NCBI GenBank assembly: GCA_902763535.1
Contig: CACWSG010000004.1
Location: 113,595 to 177,594 of the forward strand
Length of the DNA stretch: 64,000 nt
Reading direction: 5' to 3'
Source of the DNA: an uncultured Pseudomonadota bacterium
Lineage (GTDB): Bacteria > Pseudomonadota > Alphaproteobacteria > RF32 > CAG-239
Below are positions 33,026 through 62,850 of the stretch, piece by piece (positions within the stretch are counted from its first letter, which is position 1; each line of letters starts with the position of its first letter). The translations under genes and the position numbers were made by a program. The notes beneath the pieces were generated by a model that had not been told where the DNA came from, ran no database searches, and saw nothing but the letters and a program-made list of their open reading frames with translations.

Positions 33026-33196
33026 ATGAAATTAGGAACTGCGCAATACGAGCGTTAAAGCAGGTCTTCCGAGCCAACAAAATTATAAAGGGAGCCGTCT
33101 CTGAACAAATCGTGGTTTGTTTATATGGCACCCACCTAAATGACCGGCGGTTCGTTTCAAGAATGTATAGGCACGGTTGAATGGTTCTAATTTTAT
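33026..33196 (+). ncRNA. ssrS: 6S RNA
   Basis: This 171-base RNA lies directly after zapA, its classical neighbour. Its ends pair: AAATTAGGAAC (33029-33039) with GGTTCTAATTT (33183-33193). That leaves a long interrupted hairpin with a large central bubble, the shape that mimics an open promoter and traps sigma-70 RNA polymerase in stationary phase. A strong terminator follows. The exact 5' end is estimated. Confidence 0.85.
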
Positions 33197-33243: not shown

Positions 33244-34026
33244 TTGAAAATAGTTTATTTGGGCGATATAGTTGCTCGTAGCGGTCGTGAAAAGGTTATT
33301 CAAACCATACCGCAAATAAAGCAGGATTGGCAAATGGATGCGTTGATAGTCAATGTTGACAATGTAGCGCATGGATTCGGTTGTACGCCCAAAATTGCCA
33401 AACAGCTTTTGGATGCCAAAGTTTCGGCAATTGTAACCGGTGATCATGTATGGAATCAAAAAGAGTTGTTGGAGTTTTTGAATGACAACAATCGCATAGT
33501 TCGTCCGCTTAATTACTCGGATAATTTGGCCGGAGTTGGTGCTCGGGTAATTCCGCTTGATTCGGGGCAAAAAATTTTGGTAGCCGAGGTTGTAGGGCGT
33601 GTATTTATGGAGACAGTAGAATCTCCGGTCATAAAAGTTGAGCAGCTTTTGCAAAAATACAAACTTGCCCGCGATGTTGATGCCATATTTATTGATATTC
33701 ATGCCGAGGCCACAGCTGAAAAACAAGCTTTTGCCCATTGTTTTGATGGCTGTGTTTCAGCCATTATCGGCTCTCATACTCATGTTCCAACCGCGGATGC
33801 AGTTATTTTGCCTAAAGGAACTGCTTATCAAACTGATGTTGGAATGTGTGGAAACTATGACAGCGTTATCGGTTTTGATGAAAAAGCTCCAATTGAACGT
33901 TTGCGTGACAAATCATCGCCCAGCCGCCTAGAACCCAAAGGCGGTAATGCGCAAATTTGCGGCGTTTTTATCGAAACGGACAACAAAACCGGTTTGGCCG
34001 TAAAAATAACTCCCTTTAAATATTAG
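33244..34026 (+). CDS. YmdB/TIGR00282-family metallophosphoesterase
   Basis: YmdB proteins are dinuclear-metal phosphodiesterases; B. subtilis YmdB hydrolyses cyclic nucleotides. MKIVYLGDIVARSG opens the fold, with DIHAEAT, GSHTHVPTAD and TDVGMCG further on. Two ligand positions differ: the usual NGENAAG reads NVDNVAHG (Glu to Asp) and GNHxWD reads GDHVWN (Asn to Asp). Activity may persist but metal choice could change. The start is a TTG with AGGGGG upstream. The 5-formyltetrahydrofolate cyclo-ligase gene usually found after 6S RNA is missing. Confidence 0.88.
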   Translation: MKIVYLGDIVARSGREKVIQTIPQIKQDWQMDALIVNVDNVAHGFGCTPKIAKQLLDAKVSAIVTGDHVWNQKELLEFLNDNNRIVRPLNYSDNLAGVGARVIPLDSGQKILVAEVVGRVFMETVESPVIKVEQLLQKYKLARDVDAIFIDIHAEATAEKQAFAHCFDGCVSAIIGSHTHVPTADAVILPKGTAYQTDVGMCGNYDSVIGFDEKAPIERLRDKSSPSRLEPKGGNAQICGVFIETDNKTGLAVKITPFKY

Positions 34027-34045: not shown

Positions 34046-34493
34046 TCACGCTAAAGCGGATGAAAACGCCCCACTTGTCACCCCTGAGTGGTTTGCCAAA
34101 ACCACGAATTAGGGGTCTTCGAATTAATAAAATTGGAAGATGCCTTATTCGGACTGTAAGCAGTCCTCAGGCATGACACTAATGTATTATTGTCACCCCT
34201 GAGTGGTTTGCCAAAACCACGAATTAGGGGTCTACGATGTTTTTTAGGGTTTGGGATTGCGAGCCGAGCGGAATAAGCAAACAACGACAAGGCTGGCAAA
34301 GATTTGCTTTATGCGCCAATCGTCGGGCGCTTTAGTCGCCTGTAAGTTTGGCGCAGCCCTATGTCTTTGAGTTGTTTGCCCGCTAGGCGAACATCCCAAT
34401 GACTTTTGGACACTTTTGGTCACTCAAAAGTGTCAATAATATAAAAAAATCCGAAGATACCTAATTCGCTCGTTCCTCGCTCAAGGGGTGACA
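34046..34493. repeat. Modular palindromic repeat cluster 1 (X-Y-X-Z-W-Y/X)
   Basis: Two X elements (34076-34118 and 34191-34233) have outer arms ACCCCT/AGGGGT around an inner palindrome GTGGTTT-GCCA-AAACCAC. A Y element (34136-34178) has arms ATGCCT/AGGCAT around GGACTG/CAGTCC. These are followed by a Z element (34246-34400) and a W palindrome (34409-34434, arms GACACTTTTG/CAAAAGTGTC). Last is a hybrid (34453-34493) whose left half is Y-like and right half X-like. The cluster fills the gap between ymdB and the small ORF at 34461. Confidence 0.85.
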
Positions 34494-56970: not shown

Positions 56971-57179
56971 TGTCACCCCTGAAGCCCTGCAGGGGCTGAA
57001 TTAGGGGTCTTCGAATTAGTAAAAAAGTAGATGCCTAACTCAAAATGCTGGCGCATTTTTCGGGCATGACATTAAAAAATGTCACCCCTGAGCGGATGCA
57101 ATCCGCGAATTAGGGATCTACGAATTAATAAAATCGGAAGATGCCTAATTCGGACTGTAAGCAGTCCTCAGGCATGACA
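56971..57179. repeat. Modular palindromic repeats, cluster 2 (X-Y-X-Y)
   Basis: X at 56971-57010 (inner palindrome AGCCC/GGGCT) and 57080-57118 (GCGGAT/ATCCGC). Y at 57027-57071 (AAAATGC/GCATTTT) and 57137-57179 (GGACTG/CAGTCC). Arms ACCCCT/AGGGGT (X) and ATGCCT/AGGCAT (Y; CGGGCAT in one) are kept, with spacers such as TCGAATTAATAAAAT between them. One X arm has a single change (AGGGAT). Confidence 0.88.
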
Positions 57180-57190
57180 TTTTTATAATC

Positions 57191-57345
57191 AGGGTTTGGG
57201 ATTGCGAGCCGAGCGGATAAAAGCAAACAACGATAAGGCTGGCAAATATTTGCTTTATGCGACCACTGTCGCGCGCGTTAAGTCGCGCCCCGCTAAGGCG
57301 AACATCCCAACACTTTTTGGTTACTTTTGGGTGCCCAAAAGTAAC
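57191..57345. repeat. Z element followed by a W palindrome
   Basis: Z runs from GGGTTTGGGATTGCGAGCC (57191) to GCGAACATCCCAA (57310), with TTGGGAT and ATCCCAA as inverted ends. A W palindrome (57320-57345) with arms GTTACTTTTGGG/CCCAAAAGTAAC follows at once. A near-identical copy is at 58641-58788, and a more divergent one at 34246-34434. Confidence 0.85.
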
Positions 57346-57445
57346 ATAAATATTCTTTGTGCGTACAAAAGTAGCTAAAGATATGTTGCTAAAAGTAACA
57401 ATATTATTGTGCGTGCAAAAGTAACTATAATTTGACCACAGTTAA

Positions 57446-57476
57446 TAAAAAAAGCACCCTTGAGAGTGCTTTTTTA
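57446..57476 (-). terminator. Terminator of the tRNA-Thr/tRNA-Ser transcript
   Basis: On the minus strand AAAAAAGCAC pairs with GTGCTTTTTT through a short loop, just beyond tRNA-Ser. Confidence 0.75.
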
Positions 57477-57482
57477 TTTTAA

Positions 57483-57572
57483 TGGCGGAAAGGGGGAGAT
57501 TCGAACTCCCGGAGGGGTCGCCCCCTCGACGGTTTTCAAGACCGCTGCATTAAACCGCTCTGCCACCTTTCC
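57483..57572 (-). tRNA. tRNA-Ser (TGA)
   Basis: 90 bases with the long variable arm of serine tRNAs, acceptor GGAAAGG, anticodon loop CTTGAAA (TGA), T-loop TTCGAAT, and CCA encoded. It lies 63 bases downstream of tRNA-Thr on the same strand. Confidence 0.94.
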
Positions 57573-57635
57573 AATAATATCAAAAAACAAAATCCAATAA
57601 TAAAATTTCCGCTTCAAAACGAATCGATAAAAAAA

Positions 57636-57711
57636 TGGTGCCGACAGAGAGACTCGAACTCCCGACCCACTGATTACAAATCAGTAGCTCTACCAACTGA
57701 GCTATGTCGGC
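57636..57711 (-). tRNA. tRNA-Thr (TGT)
   Basis: A 76-base cloverleaf: acceptor GCCGACA/TGTCGGC, anticodon stem CTGAT/ATCAG around TTTGTAA (anticodon TGT), T-loop TTCGAGT and encoded CCA. Confidence 0.94.
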
Positions 57712-57797
57712 ATCAATTTCGAAAACTTACATAACCTATAATTTTGGCAAATGCAACATTTTTTTTAATTTTGTTCCAAACCGGCTTACCAAACATA

Positions 57798-57826
57798 TTG
57801 ACCAATTTGCAAAACATTATTATATA
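57798..57826 (+). promoter_or_regulatory. Promoter of the 125-residue gene
   Basis: TTGACC (57798-57803) and TATATA (57821-57826) are 17 bases apart. The ATG at 57861 is 34 bases beyond the -10. Confidence 0.6.
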
Positions 57827-57860
57827 GAACAGCGAAAATAATCTTATTAATTTTATATAT

Positions 57861-58238
57861 ATGCAAAACACAAATGTTTCTATCGCTTTTGTACCCACCG
57901 GAGAGAATGGCAATGGTCCGATTTGTTGGATAAGTTCTCTTTTTGAGCAGGAGCGAGAAATCAAGATTGTAGCAGTAGCGTCGCCCACCCGTGAGGGCAT
58001 GATGCCGATTTTGGAGCACCATGTTGCTCGCCTCAAAGACAGCCAAGGAATCGCAAAAAAGAATCGTGATGTTATCGCCAAGGCGATTTTGCGAGCCAAA
58101 CAGCGCGAATCTTCGGTGCTTGACTTGTCGGTATTTCGCCATTTGCGTGATCACATCAACGATTGGATGTTTGACAACGAGATGTGGCCCATGTTGCTGC
58201 TCAAGAAAAAGGATATTCTCTATGTTGAGAATCTCTAA
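57861..58238 (+). CDS. Small protein of unknown function, 125 residues
   Basis: No recognised family. The first 40 residues have a strand-helix-strand pattern (SIAFVPTGENGNGPICWISS, then IKIVAVAS). The rest is helical and charged, ending LLLKKKDILYVENL. There is no signal peptide. I support it by its own promoter and a terminator just after the stop, with no reading frame of comparable quality on the other strand. There is no clear ribosome binding site, so start choice is uncertain. Confidence 0.65.
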   Translation: MQNTNVSIAFVPTGENGNGPICWISSLFEQEREIKIVAVASPTREGMMPILEHHVARLKDSQGIAKKNRDVIAKAILRAKQRESSVLDLSVFRHLRDHINDWMFDNEMWPMLLLKKKDILYVENL

Positions 58239-58241
58239 GCT

Positions 58242-58279
58242 AAGCCTGAAAATGCTCCAAACATTTTCGGGCTTTTTTA
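58242..58279 (+). terminator. Terminator of the 125-residue gene
   Basis: AAGCCTGAAAATG pairs with CATTTTCGGGCTT, 13 bp with one G-T pair and a seven-base loop, followed by T residues three bases after the stop codon. Confidence 0.9.
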
Positions 58280-58349
58280 TTGTCCCCCACAGGTTTATTT
58301 TCTGCTCAGGTTCGGGCATTATGAGGGCAAGTGACAAATAATATTACAT

Positions 58350-58628
58350 GGTTTGGGATTGCGAGCCTGACCCTACGGGCTTCGGGCATGACAAAACCGA
58401 TAATGTCACCCCTGAGCGACTGAAAACGCCCCACCTGTCACCCCTGAGCGGATGAAATCCGCGAATTAGGGGTCTCCGACGTTTTTTTGGACACTTTTGG
58501 TCACTCAAAAGTGTCAATAATATAAAAAAATTCGAAGATGCCTAATTCGGACTGCAAGCAGTCCTCAGGCATGACACTAATGTATTATTGTCACCCCTGA
58601 GCGGATGAAATCCGCGAATTAGGGGTCT
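58350..58628. repeat. Modular palindromic repeats, cluster 3 (chimera, X, W, Y, X)
   Basis: A Z/Y chimera (58350-58392) is followed by a truncated X (58404) and a full X (58436-58475, inner GCGGAT/ATCCGC). Then come W (58490-58515, arms GACACTTTTG/CAAAAGTGTC), Y (58534-58576, GGACTG/CAGTCC) and X (58589-58628, again GCGGAT/ATCCGC). The X-W-Y-X order shows W sitting in the X-Y spacer. Confidence 0.88.
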
Positions 58629-58640
58629 CCGATGTTTTTT

Positions 58641-58788
58641 AGGGTTTGGGATTGCGAGCCGAGCGGATAAAAGCAAACAACGATAAGGCTGGCAAATATT
58701 TGCTTTATGCGACCACTGTCGCGCGCGTTAAGTCGCGCGGGCGAACATCCCAACACTTTTTGGTTACTTTTGGGTGCCCAAAAGTAAC
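58641..58788. repeat. Z element with W palindrome, second copy
   Basis: Almost identical to 57191-57345, including the W palindrome (58763-58788). A short stretch CCCGCTAAG near the right end of the first copy is missing here. A degenerate Y follows. Confidence 0.85.
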
Positions 58789-58976
58789 ATAAATATTCTT
58801 TGTGCGTACAAAAGTAACAATAAAAGAATCGGAAGATGCCCATGCTCAGCCGCTCAAAGCCCGCTCACACATGACAAAAAAGGGCAGGCATGACCTTAAA
58901 AAATTCACCGCAAAAAGAATCGCCATCATAAAACGCAAAAAATTGCTAAAAGGTTAATTTTTTGACAAAAAATCGC

Positions 58977-59004
58977 TTGAAAAATATCTCATTTGTGTTA
59001 TACT
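58977..59004 (+). promoter_or_regulatory. Possible promoter before the Bacteroidota-like genes
   Basis: TTGAAA (58977-58982) and TATACT (58999-59004) with a 16-base spacer lie 329 bases ahead of the first gene. The intervening 59005-59260 is AT-rich, with no frame and no other clear signal than two short inverted copies of AACGTTC. Confidence 0.45.
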
Positions 59005-59260
59005 AAAAGAGTGAAAAAAGTTATTGTGGTTGAGATTATTTTTATTATTTGGTAGTTAAAAGAAAGGTTTGTTTTTTAGTTCAGATAACGTTCTGAACAT
59101 TAAATAAGGCTTATACTTTTGATTGTCATATAATTCAAAAAATTTCAATCAAATACATATATAGAACGTTAGAGTAATATAGTGTGTAGGAAAAGTGAGA
59201 TTGATGATTTATTGATAGCGTTCAATTTTTTTTCTTCGAATTAATCAATTGTTTTATAAG

Positions 59261-59301
59261 AGAGGGAGTAAACCGGAGCTTTAAAGGAAGCGCCTCCCTC
59301 T
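59261..59301 (+). promoter_or_regulatory. Hairpin in the leader of the first island gene
   Basis: AGAGGGAG (59261-59268) pairs with CTCCCTCT (59294-59301), with GCTT/AAGC inside. It ends 32 bases before the ATG and is followed by A-rich DNA, not T-rich DNA, so it is not a terminator for rightward reading. Confidence 0.5.
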
Positions 59302-59332
59302 GACTAAAAAAAATAAAAAAACCGGCAACAAA

Positions 59333-61000
59333 ATGAAGAAGAATATCCTTCTCACCATCATCACCCTCGTCGCCGCCATCGTCATGACCTCGTGCGACAA
59401 TCGTGAATATTCAAAAGAACTGGCCAATCAGGCTAGTCGAGAGGCAAAGCTGGTAAATATTCACCAGCATCCCGTTGACGGCGAAATCGCCAACGGAATC
59501 TTAAAATTCCGCTGCGTGGATAGCTTCTACGTCGACTGGGCGGAGCAGCACTTTGCTGGCACGCATTTTTGCAACTCTCAGTACCAAATCTATGGTGCTG
59601 AGAGCAACACTATCGCCAGCCTAGAAGGATGCTACGACGTCGATGCCAACGGCAACATCGTCGGAACGGAGCTCAGCTTAAGCTTCATCCGCGATGAAGT
59701 CGAGCAGGCTCTTGCCACCTTCCGTGGCATCGACGATCCTGTCGACTTCAGCCGCCGTATTTCCGAGACAGACACTTGTCACTACGAGCCTTTCAAGGCT
59801 TGTTTTGACAAGACCAACCGTCGTATGACGGTTTATGGTCTCGGCGAGCATGGCGATACCGCTGTCGCCACCGGTGATTGGTACGGTGTCATTGTTCACA
59901 ATGATACCACCGTCGTGGTTGAGCATGATACGGTGATCCTTAGGGACACCATCATAACCCACGACACCATCCACCACCATGACACTATCATCTTCCACGA
60001 CACCATCGTGCGCAATGACACTGTCATTACCACGCGCACTACTCAGGCTACCACCGAGCATATCAGCTGGAACCCCACTGCAGTGATGCAGGGAGGCTAC
60101 CTCTGTGTGTACGGCACGGATCGCTTGACGGTTGTCGTGAAAGAAAATGGTGTGCAGGTGAGCAGCAATAGCACCACCTATCAGCATCGCACTCGTTATG
60201 CGGTAACCGGTATCAGTGGTCTGACGCTGCCCAGTGGCACCAACACTTGCGTCAATATCGTTAATGGTCAGCTGACCATCAACGGCAATGTCATCACCAC
60301 TACTTTCGTGGATGATGTCATTACCGACGCTAGCGTTATTGTCAATGGTGTTAACTACAAGTCGCAGCTGACACCTTGTCATGCGACCGCCGTCAAGTGG
60401 TGCTTCAACAACGGTAACGCCGTTTGCCACTTCGACGATGCCAACACCACCGAAATAGCAACCTACACCACCACCTATACGGTTGAGACCCCGAGTACGG
60501 TCATTGACCTGCCCGGCACCTGCAAGGCTGTCTACATTTCTGACAGCTACACAGGCAACTGCGCTGGTCGCACCACATGGATGGTCGCTCTCTATACTTT
60601 GAGCGATGGTAGCCATGTGGAGTACCAGGTGCAGCTGACCAGCACTGCCGCTATGGCTTCGCTGAATGCTTCTAGCTTCAGCAGCGCAAGCGTAAGTGCT
60701 GACGGTTTCACTCGTTTCAATAACAATAAAAACAACTCGAATTGGGGTCTTTGCCGCATCACCACTGCTGGTACGCCTTCTGCCGCCGGATATTGCACTT
60801 ATTCTTCCGATGCTTCCGTCGGAATCTATGAGGCAACTATAAATGACGGTGTGAATCGCGTACACTGCAATGCAGCTGGTTATGCCAACCCCGATGACGA
60901 GTTGGAGCATCCTGTTCACTTCCGCAATGTCAATGGCGGCACCACCCATGTGGTTGCCACCAATGTGCATGGTGTTGATGTGAACATCACGCTCCAGTAA
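59333..61000 (+). CDS. Bacteroidota-style lipoprotein with (x)DT(I/V) repeats, unknown function
   Basis: The 555-residue protein has a lipoprotein signal (IVMTSC, Cys at about 21). A globular region (about 30-180) is followed by a run of short repeats of the form HDTI/VxxHDTI between about 200 and 235, seen in many Bacteroidota surface proteins. After this come about 320 residues, rich in Thr, Asn, Ser and Val, that look strand-rich. The codon usage is GC-rich and there is no ribosome binding site, unlike every neighbouring gene. The reverse-strand frame of similar length is a shadow. I infer acquisition from a Bacteroidota donor. Confidence 0.8.
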   Translation: MKKNILLTIITLVAAIVMTSCDNREYSKELANQASREAKLVNIHQHPVDGEIANGILKFRCVDSFYVDWAEQHFAGTHFCNSQYQIYGAESNTIASLEGCYDVDANGNIVGTELSLSFIRDEVEQALATFRGIDDPVDFSRRISETDTCHYEPFKACFDKTNRRMTVYGLGEHGDTAVATGDWYGVIVHNDTTVVVEHDTVILRDTIITHDTIHHHDTIIFHDTIVRNDTVITTRTTQATTEHISWNPTAVMQGGYLCVYGTDRLTVVVKENGVQVSSNSTTYQHRTRYAVTGISGLTLPSGTNTCVNIVNGQLTINGNVITTTFVDDVITDASVIVNGVNYKSQLTPCHATAVKWCFNNGNAVCHFDDANTTEIATYTTTYTVETPSTVIDLPGTCKAVYISDSYTGNCAGRTTWMVALYTLSDGSHVEYQVQLTSTAAMASLNASSFSSASVSADGFTRFNNNKNNSNWGLCRITTAGTPSAAGYCTYSSDASVGIYEATINDGVNRVHCNAAGYANPDDELEHPVHFRNVNGGTTHVVATNVHGVDVNITLQ

Positions 61001-61075
61001 TTGTTATTGTGTAATGCCTAAGCTTTGTCGGATAAATACCGACCGGCAATAAAGCAACACTCTAAAATTTCTATT

Positions 61076-61111
61076 AGCAGCGCTCTCAACCCTCGGGAGC
61101 GGGGCGCTGCT
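61076..61111 (+). promoter_or_regulatory. Hairpin before the second island gene
   Basis: AGCAGCGC pairs with GCGCTGCT (61104-61111), with CTC/GAG continuing the stem. Another small hairpin (GTCGG/CCGAC, flanked by GCTTT/AAAGC) lies at 61022-61054. The region 61001-61142 has no gene. Confidence 0.55.
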
Positions 61112-61142
61112 CATTTATTTGATTTTTTTATTTTTTTTGTAT

Positions 61143-62342
61143 ATGACAAAATACACAATAGCCCTCGTCGCCCTCATCCTCACCACCACCAACGTCGCCA
61201 ACGCCCAGCGCGACACCCGCACTTACCACGACGAGACCATCTGGTCTTTGTCGGGAAGTTGGGTGAATTTCGCCGAAGGTGAAAGCGGATTCAGTGGTGC
61301 CATTGGGTTTGACCAAGCCCTTTGGAAGAGTGACTTCTTCTTAGGCTTTCAAGCCCACGGCGCCACCGCCGCCACCGCCGACCTCTACAACCGCATCAAC
61401 CTAGTGGGTATGGATGTTGCACTGAGCTACAAAGTAAATCTCGGCGCTGTTTATATCCACCCCAAAATTTTTGCCGGTATTAGCATGGTCAGCCATAACA
61501 CCGTTATGACAACCAAAGAGGACCTGTTTGGTAACTACTCCCTCGTGGAGCGCCGGCAGGTTTTCCTCAAACCAGAGGTCGGTGCAAGGCTTGACCTTGG
61601 CTTCCAAATAGGGTCGTTTGGTATTGGCGTTTACGCGTCTTACGCCAAACAAAGTGATAAATTCATTCCTACTTCTGTCAACGAAAATTTGACAGTTGAG
61701 AAGGAGTGGCTTAGTCACAGCCCGTTTGAGGCAGGCATCGCTCTCCGCTGGGATATCGACAACGGTATCAAACACAGCGGTGGCAATGACCTGCCGATTG
61801 TTGAGGCCTTTGGTGGTTATGGCACCAAGGGGATAGAAACTGGGGCTCAACTCATTTTCCAGCGCAACAACGGCCTTCCTTGGTTAATCAAGGAAGAAGA
61901 AAGCCTGCGCGGTGAATACATCGCATCTAGCCACTATGGCATTAGATTTGCGATGAGCGAGCCTACCGGCGACTATCGCCTGACTGCTCAGGTTGGCTAC
62001 GGACTTTTCTTCACGCCTAAAGGACCTGATTGTGTGCATTGTTTTCGCACGATGGTCTGGTTGGGAGTGGGAGAAGGTTATGCCGAAGCCACCACAGAAT
62101 CCGGCGAGGAGGCTAGTGGGGAGTTTAATTCAGTACAAGCCACCCCTAAAGGGAATGTGGAGGTGAGTTATATCCTGCGTCCGTTTAAGGACTATCGTCG
62201 CTTTTATTTTACGGCGACCGCAGGTGCAGCTTACCAATATGTTCCTGGGACGAGCGCTGACGGTGCTTCGACCATCGTGTCGCAAAGTACCGAAAAGCCG
62301 TTCTCGTTCTACGGGAGCTTGGGAGTAGCACTCCCATTGTAA
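61143..62342 (+). CDS. Bacteroidota-style outer-membrane-like protein, unknown function
   Basis: The 399-residue protein has a signal peptide (cleaved after NAQ, about 24), no lipobox, and strand-rich sequence with Gly/aromatic alternation ending in GVALPL, a barrel-like pattern. The ATG at 61143 has no ribosome binding site, and an earlier in-frame ATG at 61119 would add eight residues. As for the first island gene, the composition is more GC-rich than the neighbours. It resembles hypothetical outer-membrane proteins of Bacteroidales by style; I cannot name a family. Confidence 0.75.
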   Translation: MTKYTIALVALILTTTNVANAQRDTRTYHDETIWSLSGSWVNFAEGESGFSGAIGFDQALWKSDFFLGFQAHGATAATADLYNRINLVGMDVALSYKVNLGAVYIHPKIFAGISMVSHNTVMTTKEDLFGNYSLVERRQVFLKPEVGARLDLGFQIGSFGIGVYASYAKQSDKFIPTSVNENLTVEKEWLSHSPFEAGIALRWDIDNGIKHSGGNDLPIVEAFGGYGTKGIETGAQLIFQRNNGLPWLIKEEESLRGEYIASSHYGIRFAMSEPTGDYRLTAQVGYGLFFTPKGPDCVHCFRTMVWLGVGEGYAEATTESGEEASGEFNSVQATPKGNVEVSYILRPFKDYRRFYFTATAGAAYQYVPGTSADGASTIVSQSTEKPFSFYGSLGVALPL

Positions 62343-62470
62343 AAAAATAACGTCGTGACCCGGCCGCAAGGTGGGGCACGTATAAAATAATACAAGTCGT
62401 CTGAGGCGAGCGAAAGCAATCAATCACCGCAAGGTGGGCGAAAGCTTCGCACCTCAGACGACATAAAAAT
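62343..62470 (+). other. Structured non-coding segment after the island genes
   Basis: GTCGTCTGAGG (62396-62406) and CCTCAGACGAC (62452-62462) close a 67-base domain. Inside it CACC-GCAA-GGTG forms a GNRA-type tetraloop hairpin. The motif CCGCAAGGTGGG occurs twice (62364 and 62428). It could be a structured 3' UTR or a small RNA. Confidence 0.5.
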
Positions 62471-62479
62471 AAACCTTTC

Positions 62480-62518
62480 ACCCAAGGAACAGCGCAAGCT
62501 GCCCCTTGGGTTTTTTTG
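62480..62518 (+). terminator. Terminator of the island transcript
   Basis: CCCAAGG pairs with CCTTGGG, with CAGC-GCAA-GCTG inside, followed by seven T residues. Confidence 0.85.
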
Positions 62519-62556
62519 TTTTAAAATGCTAAAAATAATCATTAATAAATTAATAA

Positions 62557-62850
62557 TGTCATGGCTGGAGCGAACAAAGCGAACGGAATTAGCCATCTTC
62601 GAATTAATAAAATCAGTAGATGCCTTACTCAGCCCTACGGGCTTCGGGCATGACATAATTACTGTCACCCCTGAGCAGTCTTTAGACTGCGAATTAGGGG
62701 TCTCCGATGTTTTATTGTTACTTTTGTACGCACAAAAGTAACATAAATAATTTGTAGATGCCTAATTCGCTCGTTTCACTCGCTCAGGCATGACATTAAT
62801 GTATTATTGTCACCCCTGAGTGGTTTGCCAAAACCACGAATTAGGGGTCT
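62557..62850. repeat. Modular palindromic repeats, cluster 4 (variant X, Y, X, W, Y, X)
   Basis: A variant X (about 62557-62600) has arms ATGGCT/AGCCAT. Y (62616-62655, AGCCC/GGGCT) and X (62663-62703, GCAGTC/GACTGC) come next. W (62717-62742) has arms GTTACTTTTGT/ACAAAAGTAAC. A Y without a proper inner palindrome (62754-62795) and X (62808-62850, GTGGTTT/AAACCAC) end the cluster. 62851-62968 has no gene; it holds the leader of the next. Confidence 0.88.

Follow-up and report, generated by a model that had tools for sequence, protein, structure and literature searches.

The stretch of DNA analysed here (the window) comprises 64,000 nucleotides from an uncultured Pseudomonadota bacterium of the GTDB lineage Alphaproteobacteria; RF32; CAG-239 (GenBank assembly GCA_902763535.1, contig CACWSG010000004.1, positions 113,595 to 177,594 of the forward strand). 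It carries 15 short hairpins (Table 1), eight of type X, six of type Y and one with a third type of arm (Z), and they belong to a family of TGTC-tagged repeats that elsewhere in the same genome bounds a gene for a small GIY-YIG protein. An earlier note, made from the letters of the window, had described Y as nearly the reverse complement of X, and this is correct: read on the minus strand, Y is the same element as X with two outer pairs changed. All 14 copies that the note listed were recovered at their positions, and the Z element was added. Each element consists, in this order, of the tag TGTC, a 6-bp outer arm (ACCCCT or ATGCCT), GA, a core, GAATT, the complementary arm and CT; the junction GA/GAA lies between the 6-bp outer stem and a variable inner stem. 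The tag is present in 15 of 15 window elements and stands at the start of all but two of the 142 matches to a covariance model described below. The tail in the window copies is CT, then T, A or C, then C.

The window was scanned for this architecture as GTC, a 6-nt arm, G[AG], a middle, GA and the exact complementary arm. Exact arms were found at 12 places, whereas 20 dinucleotide shuffles averaged 0.5 and never exceeded 4. When one arm mismatch was allowed the count rose to 22, with a shuffle average of 7.9 and a highest value of 13; 15 of the 22 places are the elements, and the other seven look like chance matches. Over the whole genome, a pattern with an open middle gave 37 matches versus 1 for its reversed control, and a covariance model built on 16 hand-picked element types found 50 copies, on contigs C2, C3, C4, C5, C7 and C8, a possible undercount with 150 of 463 first-look candidates scored. 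The same model was run over 35 genomes of the genus with 150 candidates scored per genome, so that these counts too may be low. It found 67 copies in RUG10672 (G009) and 14 in RUG14511 (G010), one strong match in a further genome (G027), and one, one and two weak ones in three others. The search of the genome and its relatives with fixed arms and an open middle, which the earlier note had proposed, thus showed that the copies are not confined to one contig. RUG10672 and RUG14511 are metagenome-assembled genome (MAG) records of 'uncultured proteobacterium', for which we infer a rumen origin from the record names; in a contig scan, paired arms together with a paired core occurred, among the matches listed, only in these two. 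A sister form, which combines arms ATTGC/GCAAT with an unchanged tag and GA/GAA junction, is present in 22 of the 152 family genomes, spread over 7 of 16 genera.

Neighbouring copies within 400 bp in the own genome stand head-to-head in 14 cases and tail-to-tail in 18. X/Y arrays coincide with, or lie close to, the ends of several contigs, which may have lowered the copy numbers and left some neighbours unresolved. X/Y elements lie within the first 250 bases of C7 and C8, an X lies about 160 bases from the end of C5, and on C3 and C4 the distance to the contig end is about 1.1 kb; a run of N falls within an array (L183, 9781-9817).

The cores are highly varied, with 27 distinct ones among 78 pattern copies from the three genomes and three looser window copies, but their pairing is kept. 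Five-base core arms pair at 4.06 of 5 positions within a copy versus 1.57 of 5 between copies. Within the copies of 18 core types, 73 of 90 possible pairs between the five-base arms are formed, whereas 20,000 re-matchings gave at most 53. On the 16 chosen types, the two-stem structure had 92.2% of its cells paired, versus 65.5% when shuffled and 28-45% when slid, and double changes numbered 57 versus 19.5. The covariation test suggested earlier therefore came out in favour of constant arms around varied but paired cores. The same core also occurs under different arms: GCGGAT with both X and Y arms, and GCAACT likewise in RUG10672.

The stronger statement that the inner stem is always self-complementary goes too far. 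Among the model matches in the stretches searched, outer core positions were fully paired (Watson-Crick or GU) in 30 of 50 copies of the own genome, 10 of 14 in RUG14511 and 22 of 77 in RUG10672; with G.A also allowed, the counts were 43 of 50, 13 of 14 and 59 of 77. The 77 copies of RUG10672 in this set exceed the 67 given above because an unchanged E-value cut-off admits weaker matches in a smaller search space. Tandem G.A mismatches occur in many cores, for example in the class of GCGAGTGAAACGAGC and alike. When folded as single-stranded DNA, one core of this class was no more stable than its shuffles (z -0.43), unlike the three other folded types. In AATT variants the computed fold has GA paired to TT, so that the tandem G.A junction is an interpretation and not a result. 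A kink-turn at the junction was considered and dropped, its bulge lying on the wrong side for that motif. In the ATTGC sister form, 39 distinct cores of at least 11 nt, drawn from 54 strings of five genomes among the matches listed, had 113 of 156 cells paired over the outer four core pairs (mean 84, maximum 102 in 10,000 re-matchings); core pairing in the sister form is real but looser.

Comparison with RUG14511, in alignments of 71 to 93% identity around the compared loci, showed how copies differ between related genomes. Window positions 34076-34233 hold X-Y-X here and a single X in RUG14511. At 62663-62850, X(GCAGTC)-Y-X(GTGGTTT) here corresponds to a single X that has the first core and the right flank of the second copy. 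At 56971 the left flank is common to both genomes, the core is AGCCC here versus GCGGAT in RUG14511, and the next X of this genome has GCGGAT. Among the comparable loci, five copies have an identical core, Z differs by one base and only the copy at 56971 is clearly different, which can be explained by recombination or by gain or loss of units between neighbours. The idea that cores are replaced as units thus holds in that cores differ between copies; a swap in place was not seen directly, the five orthologous cores just mentioned being identical. The differences fit exchange or slippage in the constant arms, by gain here or by loss there. Elements with mixed arms in the own genome (ATGGCT with AGGCAT twice, ACCCTC with AGGGGT once) may be read as recombinants. 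Inverted neighbours in the three genomes differ in their outer arm in 71 of 71 cases, where about 27 alike would be expected; some of these pairs, however, are duplicates of others, which leaves 21 and 15 distinct pair types. A corresponding heterodimer rule for the cores was rejected, since the difference was not significant after the arms were accounted for (chance of zero alike 0.30 in the own genome and 0.68 in RUG10672).

X and Y alternate strands within arrays, in agreement with the earlier comparison to inverted arrays of repetitive extragenic palindromes (REPs) and bacterial interspersed mosaic elements (BIMEs). The note had further proposed that the elements are moved by a REP-associated tyrosine transposase (RAYT, TnpA-REP), a Y1 transposase, and such a gene was looked for. 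The domain PF01797 (Y1_Tnp) had 0 matches in the own genome, RUG10672 and RUG14511, and none in G029, a family genome that carries the ATTGC sister form in 67 copies. RAYT-type genes are present in the family, with PF01797 matches in 53 of 152 family genomes and in 5 of 14 control genomes, and the tagged hairpins in inverted pairs resemble the GTAG-tagged REPs, BIMEs and REPINs that go with RAYTs. However, the tag here is TGTC and not GTAG, the carriers have no Y1 transposase match, and 10 RAYT loci taken from the 53 genomes (about 21 kb of flank) held two tagged hairpins in all, a figure given as a total only because gene positions were assumed. Mobilisation by RAYT is thus very improbable as the explanation of these repeats, although the absence of the gene speaks against current mobilisation only, since RAYTs can be lost.

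Another group of tagged repeats, the CGTC-tagged REPs, is described by Di Nocera et al. (2013, PMC3733652) as intergenic and found mostly in Alphaproteobacteria, with a short palindrome flanked on one side by unpaired CGTC, TGTC or CCTC, one 8-9 bp stem, a 4-5 nt loop and mostly a CCA tail. Head-to-head dimers, often of unlike partners, predominate, and both clusters and tail-to-tail pairs are rare. CGTC-1/CGTC-4 are equated there with Neisseria dRS3 and Rickettsia RPE-6/RPE-4, self-complementary loop interiors are described for the GTAG-3 and GTAG-14 families, and the paper reports no associated transposase for the CGTC superfamily. The present elements share the [CT]GTC tag, the short intergenic hairpin, the head-to-head pairs of unlike partners and the lack of a RAYT association. 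They differ in their 6-bp outer stem, the GA/GAA junction and an additional variable stem about 5-7 bp long, in a CT tail rather than a CCA-type one, in frequent arrays with the tail-to-tail pairs counted above, and in a nuclease gene bounded by hairpins. Given the two-part stem, the tail and the tail-to-tail neighbours, they are therefore best regarded as a variant that works like the four CGTC families of the paper and not as a member of one of them.

The nuclease gene lies outside the window, at C3:160021-160317 of the own genome, and encodes a 99-aa GIY-YIG protein (PF01541, E 3e-17). It sits between a Y and an inverted Y-type hairpin, which is followed by an X. In RUG10672 the gene for a 78% identical protein has a Y on one side and a truncated half hairpin on the other, this too followed by an X. 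The DNA beside these two genes shares its ends, TCT.C.GA... and ...TTCGAAGATGCC, with the spacers of head-to-head X-Y pairs, which is expected if these pairs are gene-less forms of a hairpin-gene-hairpin arrangement. A second GIY-YIG gene of the own genome lies about 220 bp beyond the first, in the region C3:160470-161040 (equal to L183:10470-11040). It has a one-stem TGTC-tagged hairpin on either side, TGTCACCCTCGGGCTTGACCCGAGGGTC and, in inverted orientation, TGTCATTCTCGGGCTTGACCCGAGAATC, so that the two genes of the own genome have two different hairpin types. This second gene also adjoins repeated partial copies of its one-stem hairpin.

The 99-aa product is a small single-domain GIY-YIG protein with conserved motifs and 5,586 homologues at E 1e-8. 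Its predicted fold (predicted local distance difference test score, pLDDT, 91.8) is nearest among solved folds to UPF0213 BH0048 (E 3.4e-4), Slx1 (4e-2) and UvrC (6e-2), of which only UPF0213 passes E 0.001; by sequence, no solved chain matched at E 0.01. Residues invariant in 36 homologues include Y7, Y18, G20, R28, E65 and N84, some of which we presume to be catalytic.

Of the 152 family genomes, 41 have a homologue at E 1e-6, and of the 385 genomes of the class, 122 have one at E 1e-8. We examined 59 loci, taken best-scoring first and so not at random: 30 of 56 family matches (one per genome) and 29 from the class. The hairpin detector required [CT]GTCA, then a stem with exactly matching 5-bp arms, then C[TC]. 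CGTC/TGTC-tagged hairpins occur near most of these genes, with at least one within 300 bp at 48 of 59 loci (25 of 30 in the family, 23 of 29 in the class), and at 23 of 28 family loci when those of the own genome and RUG10672 are set aside. The near regions held 123 hairpins in 34.5 kb versus 32 in 128.4 kb of outer flank, a 14-fold higher density; in intergenic DNA only, the densities were 5.33 versus 1.02 per kb, or about 5-fold. Mononucleotide shuffling of the near regions of the 30 family loci led to an expectation of 0.45 hairpins, and five changed tags gave 0 to 4 near hits; the tag [AG]GTCA gave 13 and is also enriched. P-values for such counts assume independent hairpins, and independence is incomplete. 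Where hairpins lay within 150 bp on both sides of the gene, their tags pointed outward in 19 of 23 loci. A count made without reference to the tag, of perfect stems of at least 7 bp near the genes, had GTC as the commonest preceding triplet (61 of 541), with C or T before it in 58 of the 61 and a C behind the stem in 60. C[CT] tails occur on hairpins near other GIY-YIG genes, and the examined genes each tend to have their own arm type. Family genomes with at least five ATTGC-type copies had a GIY-YIG match in 6 of 8 cases.

Table 1. Hairpins of the window (window coordinates) and flagellin-type genes with an adjoining hairpin (locus coordinates)
Feature	Position	Strand	Remark
X, core GTGGTTT/AAACCAC	34076..34118	+	
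Y, core GGACTG/CAGTCC	34138..34178	-	
X, core GTGGTTT/AAACCAC	34191..34233	+	RUG14511: single X where this genome has X-Y-X
X, core AGCCC/GGGCT	56971..57010	+	RUG14511: same left flank with core GCGGAT/ATCCGC
Y-type (arm ATGCCC, one arm mismatch), core AAAATGC/GCATTTT	57029..57071	-	
X (one arm mismatch), core GCGGAT/ATCCGC	57080..57119	+	
Y, core GGACTG/CAGTCC	57139..57179	-	
X, core GCGGAT/ATCCGC	58436..58475	+	truncated X start directly ahead at 58404
Y, core GGACTG/CAGTCC	58536..58576	-	
X, core GCGGAT/ATCCGC	58589..58628	+	
Z (arms ATGGCT/AGCCAT), poorly paired core	62557..62598	+	absent from the list of the earlier note
Y-type (arm ATGCCC, one arm mismatch), core AGCCC/GGGCT	62618..62655	-	
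X, core GCAGTC/GACTGC	62663..62703	+	
Y, core GCGAGT..ACGAGC with tandem G.A	62756..62795	-	
X, core GTGGTTT/AAACCAC	62808..62850	+	right flank is that after the single X in RUG14511
Flagellin-type genes, own genome	L186:5387-7375; L187:2876-4618		
Flagellin-type genes, RUG14511	L181:4380-6149; L189:4327-6108		

A block of about 1.8 kb that adjoins X/Y elements at several places was at first sight transposon-like and turned out to consist of flagellin-type genes. These genes are dispersed, have like ends and differing middles, and carry an X or Y hairpin about 12 bp or less from the stop codon. Two of the four Flagellin_N matches of the own genome have an X/Y-pattern hairpin in the locus. In RUG14511 a flagellin-type gene is next to the orthologue of window 33244-34026; at that place the own genome has repeats only. 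A longer repeated module (GGGTTTGGGATTGCGAG ... AACATCCCAA) is interleaved with X/Y elements at window positions 34243-34470 and 58638-58800, and is followed by hairpins whose ends are likewise constant and whose middles vary, for example TTACTTTTG...CAAAAGTAA and GACACTTTTG...CAAAAGTGTC.

The position of family hairpins close to the stop codons of four flagellin-type genes, and covariation that would also be expected of a structured RNA, could point to structured RNA or bidirectional transcription elements (terminators, mRNA stabilisers) whose core is under pairing constraint only. We regard this as improbable: at the gathering score Rfam matched no family to the elements, returning only tRNAs and 6S RNA in the window, array members alternate strands, and the association with the nuclease would be left unexplained. 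The 6S RNA match lies at window positions 33033-33191 and scores 50.2 bits versus the Rfam gathering score of 46.4.

The reading that we prefer, at a probability of roughly one half, is that the elements are a family of TGTC-tagged REP-like hairpins in which the outer stem is kept while a mostly paired inner stem varies, and that the GIY-YIG nuclease whose gene they bound recognises the tag and outer stem, most likely as single-stranded DNA. A complete unit would be hairpin, GIY-YIG gene, hairpin, with the tags outward; head-to-head X-Y pairs would be its gene-less derivatives, and single copies and arrays its remnants. The putative nuclease would probably cut and spread the hairpins. The inner stem would not be read base by base and would mainly have to fold, leaving its sequence free to change, and the shared arms and junction would let neighbours recombine or slip, by which X-Y units may be added or removed and a core joined to another flank.

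Recognition of single strands is suggested in part by Ssn of Neisseria, reportedly site-specific single-strand GIY-YIG nucleases with a repeated target. The likeness is a small GIY-YIG protein with a repeated cognate sequence, here found near the gene at the 48 loci given above. The Ssn report may anticipate part of the link between GIY-YIG genes and repeats; that report aside, the best text-search matches contained no literature linking GIY-YIG genes to REP-type repeats, and a literature search with the letters of the repeat gave nothing relevant by title among the matches listed. Ssn also suggests that the GIY-YIG protein might be a host nuclease for defence or control of DNA uptake, with the repeats as its marks and not as mobile DNA. 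Repeats with a cognate tag around the gene would fit either reading. A gene enclosed by hairpins with outward tags has the look of a mobile unit, however, and pairs that share its spacer ends but lack the gene look derived from it; we hold the defence role to be distinctly improbable.

More weight is due to plain repeat dynamics, in which host recombination, slippage and gene conversion act alone and the GIY-YIG gene is a passenger in repeat-rich intergenic DNA. The differences between orthologous loci are of the kind that recombination in shared arms makes, and several observations count against a nuclease that moves the hairpins. RUG14511 retains its 14 copies with no GIY-YIG match, so that gene and repeats are separable, and several other genomes have sister repeats without the gene, among them G040 (29 ATTGC copies) and G070 (9), which gave no GIY-YIG match. 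The window has no GIY-YIG gene beside X/Y, and 11 of the 59 examined loci had no hairpin detected within 300 bp. Further pair types on the 16 element types were not in excess (16 versus 16.5 in shuffles). Two single copies were compared with RUG14511 in search of clean empty sites, but the differences there extend over longer stretches, and no target duplication can be read from them. Moreover, repair or defence may be the role of nucleases of the GIY-YIG fold, and both could be drawn to intergenic DNA rich in REPs. Against repeat dynamics alone stand the enrichment that remains in intergenic DNA, the outward tags around the gene, and the tendency of each gene towards its own arm type, with two hairpin types for the two genes of the own genome. 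On balance this explanation appears unlikely, though less so than the other alternatives.

A wider version of the preferred reading is that GIY-YIG nucleases supply the mobilising enzyme that CGTC/TGTC-tagged REPs in general have seemed to lack, with a mobile hairpin-gene-hairpin unit recognised by its tag and outer stem, REP dimers as its gene-less derivatives, and an inner stem that is a freely replaceable, structure-only module reshuffled via the constant arms. This version is tentative, and we would place it somewhat short of even odds; the incomplete gene-repeat link at genome level speaks slightly against both versions. A small nuclease gene between hairpins of matched orientation, as seen in many of the examined genomes, would give a bench-testable candidate for what moves CGTC-tagged repeats, and the varied cores would amount to a natural mutational scan of which part of the element is read and which part only folds.

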